IMG/VR virus record: IMGVR_UViG_3300012001_000033
Coordinates: 1-23,397 of that record
Source: a virus
DNA: 23,397 nucleotides
Strand: one strand, 5' to 3'
Under the pieces are notes generated by a model. The model saw only the letters and a list, made by a program, of their open reading frames with translations. It had not been told where the DNA came from and made no database searches. Positions 3,663 through 22,325 of the stretch are shown here, in pieces. Each line of letters begins with the position of its first letter. The first letter of the stretch is position 1. The position numbers and the translations under genes are program-made.

Positions 3663-4044
3663 CTAGTTCAGGACTGTCCACTCCTTGAGGGCAATGCGGA
3701 GGTCGCTCAGCAGACCATTGCTGCCATCAGGGAAGGTGGTGAACCAGCCCTCATCGCCGTAGGTCTTCACGGCGAAGACCGGCAGGCCGATGTGGTTGTC
3801 GTACGCCACCAGCGATCCGGGCTCGGTCGGGAGCGACCGCGGACTTGACAAGGAAGTACTCCTCACCATACTCGTCGGCGTCCTTCCACGTCAGAAGCTC
3901 AGTCCCGGCATTCCAGTCACCGTCATCATCCTGCCACTCAGCGACACCCTGCAGGACAAGATCCACACTGTCGTTGGAGCGGGACACACGGATGGTGTCG
4001 CCCTCGGAGATGTCATCAAATCCGATCTGTACATATTCAGCCAT
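3663..4044 (-). pseudogene. Hypothetical phage protein split by a frameshift (126 aa if rejoined)
   Basis: The first frame starts at ATG 4044 (AAGGA site upstream) and reads sensibly to about residue 72 (YFLVKSAVAP). It then turns into Arg-rich sequence typical of a wrong frame and stops at 3751. The next frame continues sensibly as TEPGSLVAYDNHIGLPVFAV down to TAG at 3663. Joining at CCC (3831-3829) and skipping G3828 gives SAVAP-TEPGSLVAYD, which matches the layout I know for actinophage proteins of this type (EGDTIRV, LLTWK, FLV, TEPGSLV). The simplest cause is one extra C in CTCCCGACC, either a mutation or an assembly error; a programmed +1 shift is possible but no stalling stop codon or rare codon is seen. 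Own promoter upstream and terminator downstream make it a single-gene unit. Function unknown. Confidence 0.78.
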
Positions 4045-4077
4045 TTTGAATCCTTATTAGTCGATAGAGTCACTAGG

Positions 4078-4106
4078 ATTCTATCACCAATAGATAGGGC
4101 TGTCTA
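4078..4106 (-). promoter_or_regulatory. sigma70/sigA-type promoter for the 3663-4044 gene
   Basis: On the minus strand, TAGACA (4106-4101), a 17-base spacer and TAGAAT (4083-4078) are read directly. The start codon lies 33 bases downstream with an AAGGA ribosome site, so this one makes a normal leader. Its spacer carries CCTATCTA, similar to the spacer of the promoter at 3109-3137. Confidence 0.75.
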
Positions 4107-4120
4107 CTTGACACTGTGTA

Positions 4121-4420
4121 TCAGATGCAGCCCACAATGGTGAGTGTGGTTGCGTACCTGTTCTGTGCCCTGCAGGGGTCTGCACACCGCCAATACAGTA
4201 TCCGTTCGGAGCTGTAAGCCTGTTCGATGAAGCTGAGGCAGACATTGCGCTCTTCGGACTTTGCCCCGCAGTACCCGCACGTTGCGTAGATAATATGCGT
4301 GGCCTCACTGGGACCCGTATGCATCAACACACCGTTGCCCTTGTGCTTGTACGCGTTGTCACACTCGATCTTGAACTCAAATGCGCTCATGTCGAGGACT
4401 GCGATATCGATCTCGTCCAA
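4121..4420 (-). CDS. Hypothetical protein with Cys motifs (about 99 aa)
   Basis: The product contains MSAFEFKIECDNAYKH, then CGYCGAK near the middle, and CADPCRAQNRY near the C-terminus. The two Cys pairs could make one zinc-binding site. The start is uncertain: TTG at 4420 sits eight bases after an AAGGAGG site, TTG at 4426 is too close to it, and the first in-frame ATG (4390, MSAFEF) has no ribosome site. I prefer TTG 4420. The family is not recognised. It lies downstream of the gene at 4459 and just before the promoter of the next unit. Confidence 0.68.
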   Translation of the reverse strand: MDEIDIAVLDMSAFEFKIECDNAYKHKGNGVLMHTGPSEATHIIYATCGYCGAKSEERNVCLSFIEQAYSSERILYWRCADPCRAQNRYATTLTIVGCI

Positions 4421-4458
4421 CGTCAAGCCCTCCTTGCTGGTACTTTCAGTGTACAGGG

Positions 4459-4737
4459 CTATGCTCCCTGTGATTCAAGATCCAACTGGGCCACGATCTC
4501 CGTGTCGGTCAGACCAACTTCGCGGGCGTCCCGGATGAAGCGGTTCACGTCGGCCTTGGCCTTGGCCGTGATGAAGGGTTCGGCCCGGTAGATCCACGGG
4601 AGGACCTGCTCTTTGAGCAGATTCTTTTGCTCCATCGGTACATCGGCCCATGCGGAACGACCATCCAGCAGGATCCGGGCATCCCAGTAGTCCTGAAGAA
4701 TGCGTTCCAGCAGGTCAGTCAGATCAAAGTCATTCAT
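4459..4737 (-). CDS. Hypothetical helical protein (92 aa)
   Basis: The product starts MNDFDLTDLLERILQDYWDA and is rich in helix-forming residues throughout. The last third (VNRFIRDAREVGLTDTEIVAQ) resembles a short helix-turn-helix-like segment, but it is too weak to call a DNA-binding domain. An AGAAGGAAAACT ribosome site precedes the ATG at 4737. It probably belongs to the operon that starts at the promoter at 5166-5194. No function is assigned. Confidence 0.75.
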   Translation of the reverse strand: MNDFDLTDLLERILQDYWDARILLDGRSAWADVPMEQKNLLKEQVLPWIYRAEPFITAKAKADVNRFIRDAREVGLTDTEIVAQLDLESQGA

Positions 4738-4785
4738 AGTTTTCCTTCTTGTAGTTGTGGTGCCGGTGGCGGCTCTTGAAGATTA

Positions 4786-5064
4786 TTAACGGTATTGGTC
4801 GACGTGGTTCTGGATTTCGCGGTCTTCGGGGCGGATGAACTTCTGTGCGACAGTGGCCGCTAGGTACTCCCTTGCATCACGTTCTGAGTCAAAGCTCACA
4901 ACTCCGGAGTCATCCCGGAGCCATTCCTCCTGTATGTAGTCGTACTCATCGCACTCCTGTACACAGACGATGGTCAGATACTGTGTCAGGCGGGACTGAG
5001 GTGTCTCTGGCGTGGGGACGATGATCTTGTAGTAGGTGTTAGAGTCCCACGCGTGCGTCGGCAT
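4786..5064 (-). CDS. Hypothetical protein (92 aa)
   Basis: The product starts MPTHAWDSNTYYKIIVPTPE and is acidic and aromatic (CDEYDYIQEEWL). Start choice: the ATG at 5064 has an AGAGGA site five bases upstream, inside the end of the preceding 32-aa gene. An in-frame ATG at 5088 has no such site and would add a basic tail that looks like the neighbour's out-of-frame sequence. The 26-base overlap with the small gene suggests coupling. The C-terminal part contains a segment (SFDSERDAREYLAATVAQKF) that reads like a small ligand or RNA-binding helix, but there is no recognised family. Confidence 0.72.
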   Translation of the reverse strand: MPTHAWDSNTYYKIIVPTPETPQSRLTQYLTIVCVQECDEYDYIQEEWLRDDSGVVSFDSERDAREYLAATVAQKFIRPEDREIQNHVDQYR

Positions 5065-5137
5065 CGGCGTCCTCTTTCTCGTTGGCATCAAAGATTTCTT
5101 TGAGGGTATCGAGACCGTGTGCTACGTGCTTTCCCAT
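5039..5137 (-). CDS. Small acidic peptide gene (32 aa)
   Basis: The frame encodes MGKHVAHGLDTLKEIFDANE followed by an alternating Asp/Ala run (EDADADA) and RVGL, then TAA. It is short but well supported: a perfect AAGGAG site lies six bases before the ATG at 5137, and a strong promoter sits immediately upstream. Its end carries the ribosome site of the next gene, so it may work as a leader peptide that couples translation, or as a small protein in its own right. Its function is unknown. Confidence 0.6.
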   Translation of the reverse strand: MGKHVAHGLDTLKEIFDANEKEDADADARVGL

Positions 5138-6718: not shown

Positions 6719-8135
6719 ACAGCTGGCCTCCCTGTCTGAGGCCGAACGTGAGGCCATCCTCGGTGAACTCAGTCCGGAGGAAGCCGCTAATCTAGAATAC
6801 GATGCCAACTTCTGGCTGCGTCCGGAGCAGATCATTCCGGATGGTGATTGGTATATAACGGCTCTGGTCAGCGGACGCGGGTTCGGAAAAACGCTCGCCA
6901 TGAGTCAGTGGGTCCGCAAGAAGGCTATGGAGAATCCGGGCTGCCGTATTGCCATTGCAGCACGTACCACTGCCGACCTCCGCAACACGGTGGTCACAGG
7001 CGAGTCCGGCATCCTTGCAGTACACCCTGAGGCTGACCGTCCCGAGTACAAGCCCTCCACCACGTCCCTGCACTGGCCGAACGGCTCCAGCGCCCTGCTG
7101 CTTTCCTCTGAGGCCCCCGACTCCGCCCGTGGACCGCAGTTCCACTTCGCGGTAGGGGATGAGTTTGCGGCGTGGAAAACCGACGTTGACTCTTCAGGTG
7201 CCACCCTGTACTCCAACCTCATTGCTGCCACCCGTCTCGGTGACAACCCGCAGATCCTATTGGCCACTACGCCCAAGCGTACTGTGATCATGAAGGAACT
7301 GATGGACCTGTCCAAGGACCCGGCTGAGAAAATCAATATCGTACGCGGATCCACCTTCGAGAATACCTCACTTTCTCCAAAGTATATCGACAACCTTGTC
7401 CGTCGTTACGGCAACTCTGACCTCGCCAAGCAGGAACTCTACGGCCAGATGCTCGATGACATGGAAGGGCTGGTCTTCAAGCAAGCGATGATTGATGGTG
7501 CCCACCTGCTGGATGATGAAGTCGTCCCTAACCTTCCGCTGCGTATCATTGCTGTTGATCCGTCCGTCTCCGGGGACCCCAAGGCTGCCGACGAATGCGG
7601 CATCATCGCCATCGGCGCGACGTCAGAGAGAGACCTGACCCGCCGACGCGCATACGTGCTCGGGGACTACTCACTGCGTGCCTCCCCAGACGTCTGGGCT
7701 CAGCAGGTTGTGGATGCAGCTGCTGCCCACCGCACCAAGTTTGTGGTGGTGGAGAAGAATCAGGGTGGCCAGTTACTCCAGATGGCGATCAATGCCGTGG
7801 ATAAATCCCTGAAGGTCATGCTAGTTGTGGCAACCAAAGGCAAGGCTGTCCGTGCAGAGCCGGTCGTCATTGCCATGCAGCAGAAGCGTGTCAAGTTCGT
7901 GGACTACATGCCGACACTGGAAGAGCAGTTGCTGTACTATGACCCCAACAACTCGACCTACTCACCGGACAGAATGGACGCCATGGTCTGGGGCATTATC
8001 GCCACGCTGATCTCACCACCGGCAGGGCTGAAGGTCGGCAGATACTCAACTACTTCGGCATCAAACAGAAAACTTCCCACAGGACTGGCAACAGGGCGTA
8101 CGCAGCCACGAATACCAGCATCCAGAAGACGCTAA
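6699..8135 (+). CDS. terL: Terminase large subunit (478 aa)
   Basis: This is the ATP-driven motor that packages phage DNA into the prohead and cuts it. The N-terminal ATPase has Walker A SGRGFGKT (58-65), Walker B with catalytic Glu in AVGDE (151-155) and a coupling motif ATTP (189-192). The C-terminal RNase H-like nuclease has AVDPSVSG (Asp287), VVVEKNQGG (Glu352) and DRMDAMVWG (Asp424, Asp427), the three acidic positions expected. The length matches typical TerL proteins, so it appears complete. AAAGG precedes the ATG at 6699. It stands alone on the plus strand between two minus-strand blocks, with no portal, protease or capsid gene after it; a strong terminator follows at once. Confidence 0.97.
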   Translation: MSKSLAEQLASLSEAEREAILGELSPEEAANLEYDANFWLRPEQIIPDGDWYITALVSGRGFGKTLAMSQWVRKKAMENPGCRIAIAARTTADLRNTVVTGESGILAVHPEADRPEYKPSTTSLHWPNGSSALLLSSEAPDSARGPQFHFAVGDEFAAWKTDVDSSGATLYSNLIAATRLGDNPQILLATTPKRTVIMKELMDLSKDPAEKINIVRGSTFENTSLSPKYIDNLVRRYGNSDLAKQELYGQMLDDMEGLVFKQAMIDGAHLLDDEVVPNLPLRIIAVDPSVSGDPKAADECGIIAIGATSERDLTRRRAYVLGDYSLRASPDVWAQQVVDAAAAHRTKFVVVEKNQGGQLLQMAINAVDKSLKVMLVVATKGKAVRAEPVVIAMQQKRVKFVDYMPTLEEQLLYYDPNNSTYSPDRMDAMVWGIIATLISPPAGLKVGRYSTTSASNRKLPTGLATGRTQPRIPASRRR

Positions 8136-8176: not shown

Positions 8177-8329
8177 GTCTTGACTCTCGGAATCTTCGAT
8201 CGCTTTCTTGATACTGTAGAGCATATCTGTTGAGGATCTTTGAAGGTATCCTGTAATATCGAAGTCCCAACTAGAGTGGTTAGTGCGGTTGGACTGGTTG
8301 TAGAAGTCCAGCGCGGGGTCTGGCACCAT
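8174..8329 (-). CDS. Small hypothetical protein (51 aa)
   Basis: The frame encodes MVPDPALDFYNQSNRTNHSS and ends with MLYSIKKAIEDSESQD, TAA. Its ATG joins the stop of the upstream gene as TGATG, which strongly supports coupled translation, and its stop lies in the terminator. It is the last gene in the unit that begins with the ClgR-like regulator. The sequence is polar with a C-terminal amphipathic helix. Function unknown. Confidence 0.65.
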   Translation of the reverse strand: MVPDPALDFYNQSNRTNHSSWDFDITGYLQRSSTDMLYSIKKAIEDSESQD

Positions 8330-8529
8330 CAGTATTTATCGATCGCCCGTGCCAGTACCCTGCGGAGGTTGCTCTTCTCGGCTGACGTAATCTGGACGAT
8401 GAAGTTTCCCGACCGGGTCTTATTCACCAACCGGAACTTTACATCAATCCCCGCAATCAGACCTGCGATTTCTTGCTTCCAATCTGTGTTCTTGGGGATG
8501 CATACATTGCTGTAGATTACTTTTTCCAA
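8329..8529 (-). CDS. Small hypothetical protein (66 aa)
   Basis: The product starts at a TTG (8529) with an AAGGA site six bases upstream and reads MEKVIYSNVCIPKNTDWKQE. It contains VKFRLVNKTRSGNFIVQI, which looks like beta strands, and a helical C-terminus (SNLRRVLARAIDKY). An ATG a few bases upstream is in another frame and stops after five codons. It sits between the regulator and the 51-aa gene and is coupled to the latter. Function unknown; a regulator partner is possible by position only. Confidence 0.72.
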   Translation of the reverse strand: MEKVIYSNVCIPKNTDWKQEIAGLIAGIDVKFRLVNKTRSGNFIVQITSAEKSNLRRVLARAIDKY

Positions 8530-13303: not shown

Positions 13304-13332
13304 ATTGTATACGGTACTTGACTTTAGGTCAA
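13304..13332 (-). promoter_or_regulatory. sigma70/sigA-type promoter with overlapping inverted repeat
   Basis: On the minus strand, TTGACC (13332-13327), a 17-base spacer and TACAAT (13309-13304) are read directly. The -35 sits in TTGAC-CTAAA-GTCAA (13332-13318), a perfect 5-bp inverted repeat, which could be an operator. It would drive the 12951 gene and the D5-like helicase with a leader of about 65 bases. Confidence 0.8.
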
Positions 13333-13616
13333 TCCGCTGTATAAGTATCTCCACCTTTAGCATACCAACCAAAGGAAGGAAGAACTTCTCTAATGTATCG
13401 AATACTGAGAAGTACGGTGTCCGGATTAGCGTGCGGGATCCGTTTATCCCTGTCCCAGAAGCCAGCCCAAGTACGGTGGATGCGGCTCTGTATTTCTTTG
13501 GTCTTACTTTCCTTCGTGTACGGACCAAAGATTTCTTGTGTCCTGCGACCACTCTTGAAGGTGATGATTACCCGCAGGCGGTAGAACTGATCTACGTCAT
13601 CAGACAAGCGTTTCAC
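13329..13616 (-). CDS. Hypothetical protein (95 aa)
   Basis: The product starts at GTG (13616) and reads MKRLSDDVDQFYRLRVIITF, then KSGRRTQEIFGPYTKESKTK and a basic middle part (SRIHRTWAGFWDRDKR). The 'F-K-S-G-R---GPY-----K' arrangement recalls small actinophage proteins that start with two beta strands, but I cannot name a function. AAGGAG lies nine bases upstream of the GTG. The start overlaps the end of the endonuclease VII-like gene by 17 bases. The end of this gene carries the next promoter's -35. Confidence 0.72.
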   Translation of the reverse strand: MKRLSDDVDQFYRLRVIITFKSGRRTQEIFGPYTKESKTKEIQSRIHRTWAGFWDRDKRIPHANPDTVLLSIRYIREVLPSFGWYAKGGDTYTAD

Positions 13617-14793
13617 TTCTCATTCTCCTTGTCTTTTTGTCATATTTTGTAAGATAGTCCCTAAGAAATCCAAGACGTTCTACTGAGTCACCTAATATAC
13701 CTATACCCGCGTTGCACTTACCACAAAGTAGTCCTCGCACACATGCCCCACAACTATGGGGACCGGGACAGCAACTATGGTCGTGGTCAATCTGCAACCA
13801 ACCCCTGTGGGTCTCCGAGTGGGTATCTTGACAGATAGCACATGCAAACTGTTGGGTGTTGAGTAAATCGTAATATATTTCCTTTGAAATATTATGATTA
13901 CGATAGACAATACATCGCTTACACCGTGTTTGTCCACCATAGAACTCTGTTTTTGGCAGGTCTAGATCACAATACCCACAATGGGTCCACAAGTTGTCAA
14001 CACTATACCCGAACTTTTTAGGATTTAGCGTAAATACACTCTTTGGTTTAGGCCTTGTAAGATACGAAATAGCTGTGTCTATATACCCTAAGTTATCCCT
14101 TAAACCACCTAGAGAGGTGTTGCAGCTACTGCACAGCAGTCCTCGTATACATTGACTACAGGCCTTCGGCCCACCACAACACGAATGATCATGGTCAATC
14201 ACCAGCCCTAGAGGGCAGTCATCCTCAGAGGCTCCGCAGGAACCGCACGAGTGCCCCCACTCTATACGGAAGGCCAGGAATTGTTCATATGTCATTCCAA
14301 ATCTAGTAGATAGATCGGTGCATTTATTACATATGCTTCGTAGTCCTGATCTCGTTGTCCTCCTATAAGTTTTCGAAAAATTTCGAAGCTCTAACCACCG
14401 ACTACAGCCAGAGCACTCTTGATGTGTCGAATCAAACTTGACGTATTTTTGAGGCTGAATACCACGAGCCACGTCCCGGTCCCGACGAGCGCAGAGTGCA
14501 CAGATGCCTTTTCCAGCGTATGGCTGCCTACCATCTGGCGCGGACGTACCTATCCTCATCTCTCTGTTGCAACGAGAGCAGTGCTGTTCTTTTGACCAGT
14601 CTACAAACACCCCCTTGAATTTGCCGGAAGCTATACTCCTTAGACGTTTGTAGCAAAATGCACAGTACCCATTCGCTTCGTAAGTTCGTCGTGGGTCATA
14701 GAGGAACTCCTGAGTGGACGGCCTAATCCTTCTCTTACATTCTTCACCACAATTCGAACAAAATACCGGCGAACTCCAATCAATGTTTGGCAC
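13600..14793 (-). CDS. Tandem endonuclease VII-like protein with multiple zinc ribbons (397 aa)
   Basis: Two copies of the endonuclease VII core are present. Copy 1 has HSCGSCG (about 181-187), VIDHDHSCC (198-206) and CIRGLLCSSCN (215-225). Copy 2 has FACAICQ (316-322), QIDHDHSCC (334-342) and CVRGLLCGKCN (351-361). In T4 Endo VII the DHDH and Cys residues form the active site and zinc site of a Holliday-junction and mismatch nuclease. Additional paired CxxC units lie at about 12/15-44/47, 72/75-98/101, 127/130-155/158 and 272/275-291/294. Normal Endo VII has one core and works as a homodimer, so this looks like a single-chain dimer with four zinc ribbons. It starts at GTG with an AAGGT site. 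Role: junction resolvase or homing endonuclease; the AT-rich gene favours the latter. Confidence 0.88.
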   Translation of the reverse strand: MPNIDWSSPVFCSNCGEECKRRIRPSTQEFLYDPRRTYEANGYCAFCYKRLRSIASGKFKGVFVDWSKEQHCSRCNREMRIGTSAPDGRQPYAGKGICALCARRDRDVARGIQPQKYVKFDSTHQECSGCSRWLELRNFSKTYRRTTRSGLRSICNKCTDLSTRFGMTYEQFLAFRIEWGHSCGSCGASEDDCPLGLVIDHDHSCCGGPKACSQCIRGLLCSSCNTSLGGLRDNLGYIDTAISYLTRPKPKSVFTLNPKKFGYSVDNLWTHCGYCDLDLPKTEFYGGQTRCKRCIVYRNHNISKEIYYDLLNTQQFACAICQDTHSETHRGWLQIDHDHSCCPGPHSCGACVRGLLCGKCNAGIGILGDSVERLGFLRDYLTKYDKKTRRMRSETLV

Positions 14794-15088
14794 TATCTAA
14801 CCTTAATTTCTGTTGGCTTCGTTTATTCCCTAGTACTCCTCCTGTGGACTGATTGTGAAATCCACACATGGGTCTTATGTTTCCACGTGTGTACCTACCC
14901 CCTTCGCATCCCGGAATGATGCGGTCCACGGTGATGGTCTCCTCGGTCAGTAGCTCGGTACAGTTCTCAAAGCTGCAGAGCGCCGTGGTGCCGTCGCCGA
15001 AGGTCTCAAGAAGAAACCTCCGGCGACGCCTCCGGTCTTCGGAACTGCCGCGTGCGTTCGTATTGGAAGTGCCACGGGTCACGGTCAT
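14780..15088 (-). CDS. HNH endonuclease-like protein (102 aa)
   Basis: A basic N-terminus (EDRRRRRRFLLETFG) is followed by ALCSFENC (Cys38, Cys43), ITVDRIIPGCEGG (52-64), TRGNIRPMCGFHNQ (66-79). This is the small HNH layout, with the usual Asp-His at the first core position read as Asp-Arg (VDRI), a known variation in phage HNH proteins; Asn69 and His77 complete the motif. It would bind a metal and cut or nick DNA, and could be a homing enzyme or a packaging-related HNH. The ATG at 15088 has a poor ribosome site but lies three bases after the preceding stop. It overlaps the EndoVII gene by 14 bases. Confidence 0.82.
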   Translation of the reverse strand: MTVTRGTSNTNARGSSEDRRRRRRFLLETFGDGTTALCSFENCTELLTEETITVDRIIPGCEGGRYTRGNIRPMCGFHNQSTGGVLGNKRSQQKLRLDSAKH

Positions 15089-21590: not shown

Positions 21591-22325
21591 TTAGGGCATG
21601 GAAGTGGTCCCGAGAGTAGGACAGAACTCGCAACCATCCTTTACGACCCCTCGATTTTCATGCCACCGAGTGTGCCTACCCCTGTTGGGAAGTCCAGTAT
21701 GTATCTCTGACAGCTTCTTTTTGCGTTCTTCCGAATACTTTACACCTAGATTTGAATTAACATAATTGGGGGTGAGTTCAGACATCTTCTTACCACTATT
21801 CCAAGCAAGTTTGCCGAACATTGGGTTGTCCTCACCCATTTTAGATGAGGAAAGTAGTTGACGATGCTCCGCAGAAAGCGTCTTACCTCGGTTGAATTCA
21901 CTGATTTTTCTTTTGGTGTCTTCTGATCGGGGTCTCCCCAACTTCGCGTTACGCATTTTGAGACGACTTTCAGATCCCATAACATGACCACGAACACCCT
22001 CTCCACCATCAGTCTTGTTTAGAAGCGTATAATCACGCTCTTTGAAGATAGCGATCCATCTCATCTCGCTGAGGTTTAGTGTGTCGTCGGATTCTAGGAC
22101 TTCAAGTATGTCAAACGTAACAGCGAAAAAGTGTTTCCTGAGCCATCTAGATTTATGTGTATCATATGTTCCCGACCCTCTGTTACGCGCTGCATCAATG
22201 TGCTGCCTACATCTCAGGACACCTTTGCTGGTCTGTCCTACATATACATAACTGAGGGTCGGGTCATAAGTTAGACGCATGGCATAGATGAAATTTTTGT
22301 CGTCTATGTCTGGAATTACAGTCAA
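21591..22325 (-). CDS. GIY-YIG homing endonuclease with NUMOD3 repeats (244 aa)
   Basis: The GIY-YIG domain reads FIYAMRLT (12-19), YVYVGQT (26-32), Arg38/Arg40, the catalytic Glu87 in LSEMRWI and Asn103 in LLNKTDGGEG. NUMOD3-like motifs follow (ESRLKMRNAKLGRPRSEDTK; GEDNPMFGKLAWNSGKK; KYSEERKKKLSE). The C-terminus has HTRWH and CEFC, the same HxRxH-CxxC arrangement as the other GIY-YIG protein in this window. The start is TTG with AAGGT eight bases upstream, ten bases after the PhoH-like gene stop. It lies between the PhoH-like gene and the promoter of the BCS1-like gene, as expected for a mobile free-standing endonuclease. Confidence 0.92.
   Translation of the reverse strand: MTVIPDIDDKNFIYAMRLTYDPTLSYVYVGQTSKGVLRCRQHIDAARNRGSGTYDTHKSRWLRKHFFAVTFDILEVLESDDTLNLSEMRWIAIFKERDYTLLNKTDGGEGVRGHVMGSESRLKMRNAKLGRPRSEDTKRKISEFNRGKTLSAEHRQLLSSSKMGEDNPMFGKLAWNSGKKMSELTPNYVNSNLGVKYSEERKKKLSEIHTGLPNRGRHTRWHENRGVVKDGCEFCPTLGTTSMP

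Follow-up and report, generated by a model that had tools for sequence, protein, structure and literature searches.

A two-core endonuclease VII gene in a phage replication operon is probably a free-standing homing endonuclease

Is an endonuclease VII (Endo VII) gene with two cores in a single chain the recombination enzyme of the phage that carries it, or a mobile gene that has entered its replication operon? The question is raised by a 397-aa gene in a 23,397-base virus record (the whole stretch analysed here, referred to as the window), which is probably a fragment of a phage genome. Judged from protein identities, this phage is related to the Arthrobacter phages Racecar, Mimi, Talia1610 and Atuin, its terminase and D5-like helicase being 65% and 55% identical to those of the first three and 66% and 53% identical to those of Atuin. 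The closest relative is L082, a 158-kb viral contig with a helicase that is 81% identical, and gene order is conserved over the stretch that runs from the AAA ATPase or WhiB gene to the D5-like helicase. The gene and its surroundings are as follows:

13600..14793, minus strand: double-core Endonuclease VII gene, 397 aa, GTG start, matching PF02945 twice
14801..14806, minus strand: Shine-Dalgarno-like TTAAGG, 7 nt before the GTG, read from the sequence
14780..15088, minus strand: HNH gene, the upstream flank, 62-67% identical in L082, Racecar, Atuin and L271, outside the insert
13329..13616, minus strand: orf95, the downstream flank, which directly overlaps the HNH gene in L082
18548..19387, minus strand: GIY-YIG/NUMOD3 homing endonuclease, between WhiB and the helicase
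21591..22325, minus strand: second GIY-YIG/NUMOD3 homing endonuclease, between the AAA ATPase and PhoH

Two stretches of the 397-aa ORF matched the Pfam family Endonuclease_7 (PF02945, E 2.2e-26), and the full score of 92 bits against a curated cut-off of 23.6 places the protein in this family. A preliminary description of this DNA had proposed that two Endo VII cores share one chain with four CxxC...CxxC units, and both parts of that proposal held: the cores are complete and each passed the PF02945 cut-off by itself in a six-frame search (58.1 and 53.6 bits; matches at 14056-14307 and 13648-13902), while three of the four zinc ribbons precede core 1 and the fourth separates, and joins, the two cores. 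Five endonuclease VII families of PHROGs each matched the ORF in two stretches (phrog_2633 at 4.8e-38 and phrog_2914 at 9.4e-36), and the structure of T4 Endo VII (1e7d_A) matched the protein with an E of 8e-4. From the N-terminus, the parts of the protein are:

14653..14760, minus strand: zinc ribbon 1 (C12, C15, C44, C47), CxxC...CxxC
14491..14580, minus strand: zinc ribbon 2 (C72, C75, C98, C101), CxxC...CxxC
14320..14415, minus strand: zinc ribbon 3 (C127, C130, C155, C158), forming unit 1 with core 1
14056..14304, minus strand: Endo VII core 1, residues about 164-246
13912..13980, minus strand: zinc ribbon 4 (C272, C275, C291, C294), forming unit 2 with core 2
13648..13902, minus strand: Endo VII core 2, residues 298-382

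The motif of core 1 runs C183/C186...D200 H201 D202 H203...R217...C221/C224 N225, and that of core 2 runs C318/C321...D336 H337 D338 H339...R353...C357/C360 N361. As assigned from the sequence, the structural zinc would be held by C183/186/221/224 and C318/321/357/360, and catalysis would depend on D200, H201, H203, R217 and N225 in core 1 and on D336, H337, H339, R353 and N361 in core 2. In neither core is any part of the signature lost: the CxxC pairs for structural zinc, the D-H-D-H box, the arginine of RGLLC and the asparagine that follows the final CxxC are all in place, and these are the residues needed in T4 Endo VII and F-CphI (PMC6083498). Additional cysteines (C205, C206, C212 and C215 in core 1; C341, C342, C348 and C351 in core 2) make up an extra CC...CxxC insert in each core, which was general among the closest relatives, a sample picked with a pattern that itself contains CC. 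Since the two cores are 32% identical over 109 aa (E 7e-17), the repeat is not due to chance.

The catalytic motif places the protein beside the DHHRN family, whose member F-CphI, from cyanophage S-PM2, has been demonstrated to be a homing endonuclease (Fang et al. 2018, PMC6083498), and in whose tree most putative homing enzymes have the motif at the C-terminus (PMC6083498). The family motif of CxxC, DHxH, R and CxxC-N was found in both cores, where it aligned with F-CphI, and in both units the catalytic motif is C-terminal and a ribbon forms the N-terminal extension. F-CphI shares this layout, with a ribbon (C12/15, C38/41) ahead of a C-terminal core, as well as the D-H-H-R-N residues, and its free-standing gene is inserted beside conserved phage genes, as in the window. 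It differs in being a 142-aa protein with a single core and a single ribbon, where the window protein has two cores and four ribbons, and in the CC..CxxC inserts of both window cores; the window gene is also without an intron. Free-standing gp49-like genes in Cluster J mycobacteriophages have likewise been proposed to be homing endonucleases (PMC3706429).

T4 endonuclease VII (gp49), which had been the comparison in the preliminary description, has the same zinc-bound beta-beta-alpha-metal catalytic core, and to that extent the comparison stands; by score and by the ribbon-plus-core layout, however, F-CphI is the closer model. In pairwise scoring of the units to the two proteins, which is how homing and resolvase affinities were compared, unit 1 and unit 2 matched F-CphI with E values of 1.3e-12 and 5.4e-10, versus about 1.5e-7 for both against T4 gp49. 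Only the catalytic core aligned with T4 gp49, instead of the whole length expected of a T4-type resolvase: gp49, the resolvase of its phage, has one N-terminal core per chain and no ribbon, and its C-terminal dimerisation region has no counterpart in the window protein. We give a probability of roughly 0.7 to the reading that the gene encodes a free-standing homing endonuclease of the DHHRN (F-CphI) family, which, on the sequence comparisons, would consist of two F-CphI-like ribbon-plus-core units and two further N-terminal ribbons.

A homing gene should be sporadic and inserted between conserved genes, and this is what was found. The HNH gene of L082 (7933-8235) shares 17 bp with orf95 (8219-8506). 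In the window these two genes are separated by the Endo VII gene, which overlaps the HNH gene by 14 bp and orf95 by 17 bp, and whose stop codon falls where the HNH stop falls in L082, in the start region of orf95. Nucleotide similarity between the window and L082 ends at 14917 and returns at 13602. Because identity in the flanks of this empty site is about 75% and the HNH gene varies at its 3' end, the edge of the insertion is known only to within tens of bases. That the insert damaged the HNH gene was ruled out: the C-terminus of the window HNH protein resembles those of Racecar and Atuin, L082 being the divergent one, and the gene is intact except for a short AT-rich tail. The TTAAGG Shine-Dalgarno-like site is located in this AT-rich 3' end and probably arrived with the insert. 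In Atuin (L084), the conserved HNH gene of the group is present at 13560-13859, unannotated. The 14-base overlap of the Endo VII and HNH genes, noted earlier as a sign of mobility, is present but does not serve as one, since the HNH gene of L082 overlaps orf95 in the same manner without any insert.

The Endo VII gene was absent from this locus in L082, L268, L269, L270, L271, L276, L277, L278, Racecar, Mimi, Talia1610 and Atuin, and no match to PF02945 came up anywhere in these 12 related records, which include four complete phage genomes; the window served as positive control. Some of the 12 are fragments, several may represent the same species (L268/L269/L270; L276/L277) and both flanking genes are present in L082 only, so the records do not amount to 12 independent empty sites. 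Among the relatives found, no second phage carried an Endo VII gene at this site, and the gene is represented by a single sequence.

These absences bear directly on the proposal that the gene encodes the Holliday-junction resolvase or debranching enzyme of the phage, with the second core as a built-in dimer partner. In its favour are the sequence similarity of both cores to T4 Endo VII and the position of the gene within the replication operon; no native resolvase of the RuvC family was matched in the four related records searched, which leaves some room for resolvase activity in the window protein. A resolvase of the T4 type would, however, be conserved in its phage lineage, and because the gene and PF02945 were missing from 12 of 12 related records we conclude that it is not the resolvase of this lineage, and the automatic label 'recombination endonuclease VII' is corrected to that extent. 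The lack of a T4-type dimerisation region, the unusual composition and the ribbon with a C-terminal core, which is the layout of the homing clade (PMC6083498), also speak against this proposal, which we consider improbable. The earlier suggestion that the gene is a mobile homing gene and not the resolvase of the phage is therefore well supported by the L082 empty site, the absence from 12 relatives and the F-CphI-like layout; the gene is very likely mobile, and the locus offers a concrete empty site together with a candidate enzyme in a homing family for which one characterised member was found.

Composition is consistent with the homing reading. The gene had been described as AT-richer than its neighbours, and its GC3 is indeed 0.42 versus 0.66 for the conserved phage genes, the lowest among the genes tested, no segment of equal length in the conserved genes reaching so low a value. 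Taken by itself, composition is a weak sign of mobility, as the GC3 of 0.49 in the conserved WhiB gene shows. Low GC3 is nevertheless common to the two GIY-YIG homing genes of the operon (0.49 and 0.44), one of them itself sporadic, which supports the homing reading: the GIY-YIG gene at the WhiB/helicase junction is missing from L082 and Racecar, and L268 has a gene at the same site (3929-4759, 57% identity). The second GIY-YIG gene is also absent from L082, where a different proline-rich ORF lies between the AAA ATPase and PhoH, making this a less clean empty site. A further insertion point in the operon is seen in L268, which has another GIY-YIG-like gene (6934-7548) between helicase and primase. 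The replication operon is a repeated target of homing genes, and such genes are known to gather near replisome genes in phages (PMC10448857). Two other signs of insertion were considered and set aside. A group I intron was rejected, Rfam having no match in the window. The profiles for the N- and C-terminal parts of the primase/helicase match two separate ORFs, as if a primase had been split by an insertion, but this pair of genes is shared with Racecar, Atuin and L082, so the split is older.

In the AF2 model of the full chain (pTM 0.60; 19 alignment rows, core 2 being covered by double-core rows only), the cores were confident, with a pLDDT mostly of 82-96 in core 1, and the linker around ribbon 4 was of low confidence. 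Unit 2 modelled separately matched the restriction endonuclease Hpy99I (E 1.2e-4) and T4 Endo VII, and Hpy99I, which also carries its DHHRN core at the C-terminus, was the closest solved fold to the models of the window protein. This fold match, together with the fact that homing nucleases can be domesticated (PMC10448857), raises the alternative of an interference or restriction-type nuclease that would cut the DNA of competing phages or of the host without homing, like its duplex-cutting Hpy99I-type relatives. Hpy99I itself has one core per chain and belongs to a restriction-modification pair. We regard this alternative as unlikely: the subset of neighbouring ORFs scanned gave no match to a methyltransferase family, and homing predicts just such a clean insertion at a point where two genes touch. 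Other fold matches included the 342-aa Endo VII of Gordonia phage Phistory and, in BFVD, giant-virus proteins (Pithovirus LCPAC403/404, Fadolivirus, Klosneuvirus) that covered much of the double-core model with poor superposition and may be multi-domain HNH/zinc arrays.

If the gene is a homing endonuclease, the ribbons would bind DNA across the HNH/orf95 junction of phages without the gene, and one core would cut a strand there; repair of the break from the gene-bearing copy would spread the gene, and the insertion, by splitting the target site, would protect the carrier. The most speculative step is that the two cores might act jointly as a covalent pseudo-dimer, each cutting one strand of an asymmetric site.

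How unusual such a protein is was assessed among 238 distinct Endo VII ORFs, of which five carried a single-chain double core, a frequency of 2% that is biased since the ORFs were gathered by similarity to the window protein. Besides the window, these were from Kocuria dechangensis (L087), Nonomuraea cypriaca (L101) and the contigs L159 and L160; same-ORF pairs in L262 and L264 were rejected as double cores, each being one core split by an insert. The other four resemble the window protein in having two PF02945-type cores in one ORF, but lack a ribbon in the inter-core linker and are only 26-33% identical to it. Since the linkers differ (core starts 300-408 nt apart) and identity is low among these ORFs, their sequences suggest that the five cases are independent of each other. 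In an annotated phage collection, only single-core spans were seen among the best-ranked matches listed of up to 1573 records, and no description of a double-core Endo VII was found in the open-access literature searched. The preliminary description would have been undermined had this been a common, already described resolvase architecture, of which these searches gave no sign; the family is already known, and the two-core arrangement is rare in this sample but not unique. The double-core genes of L159 (2657-4120) and L160 (781-2469) both adjoin large serine recombinase genes, outside a replication operon, and downstream of its double-core gene L160 carries another Endo VII gene with a single core (4453-5100).

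Of 396 sampled Actinomycetota genomes, 7 contain two Endo VII genes side by side as separate genes, their cores spaced 353-410 nt apart, and in L163 one ribbon-plus-core gene directly follows another. Fusion of such tandem pairs is a plausible origin of the double core. Recent duplication appears unlikely from the sequences because for each core there is a single-core protein (49% and 54%) that resembles it more than the other core does. A tree of the cores (82 columns, 140 rows, built without F-CphI and T4 gp49) is compatible with fusion as with old duplication, and with independent as with related double cores.

In two-domain LAGLIDADG homing endonucleases, two nuclease units in one chain permit asymmetric sites. 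By analogy with these enzymes, which extends to the fusion only, their fold and active site being unrelated to the window protein, we tentatively propose a natural homing endonuclease of the beta-beta-alpha-metal type whose single chain holds two different F-CphI-like units that would form a covalent heterodimer cutting both strands of an asymmetric site, as one of several tandem-pair fusions in parallel to LAGLIDADG evolution. It is also possible, within the homing reading and with similar reserve, that the cores are independent, one cutting the homing site and the second being redundant or a DNA-binding leftover of fusion; double cores elsewhere have differing linkers, the other four lack the inter-core ribbon, and the tandem genes exist as separate proteins. 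Against independent cores, every catalytic and zinc residue is kept in both at only 32% identity, suggesting that both are maintained. The pseudo-dimer idea is the part most worth attention. The protein may be a naturally occurring scaffold in which two cores of the Endo VII fold share a single chain, and the recurring fused units, with the tandem pairs as a plausible starting point, would give a route to ask how homodimeric or nicking nucleases turn into asymmetric single-chain enzymes. The tandem pairs themselves (L135, L139, L140, L142, L143, L147 and L148) lie mostly in different frames and could be subunits of one enzyme; in most of them a 'YGIGxxEVxALI' type stands upstream and a 'YGVDxxQVxWM' type downstream.
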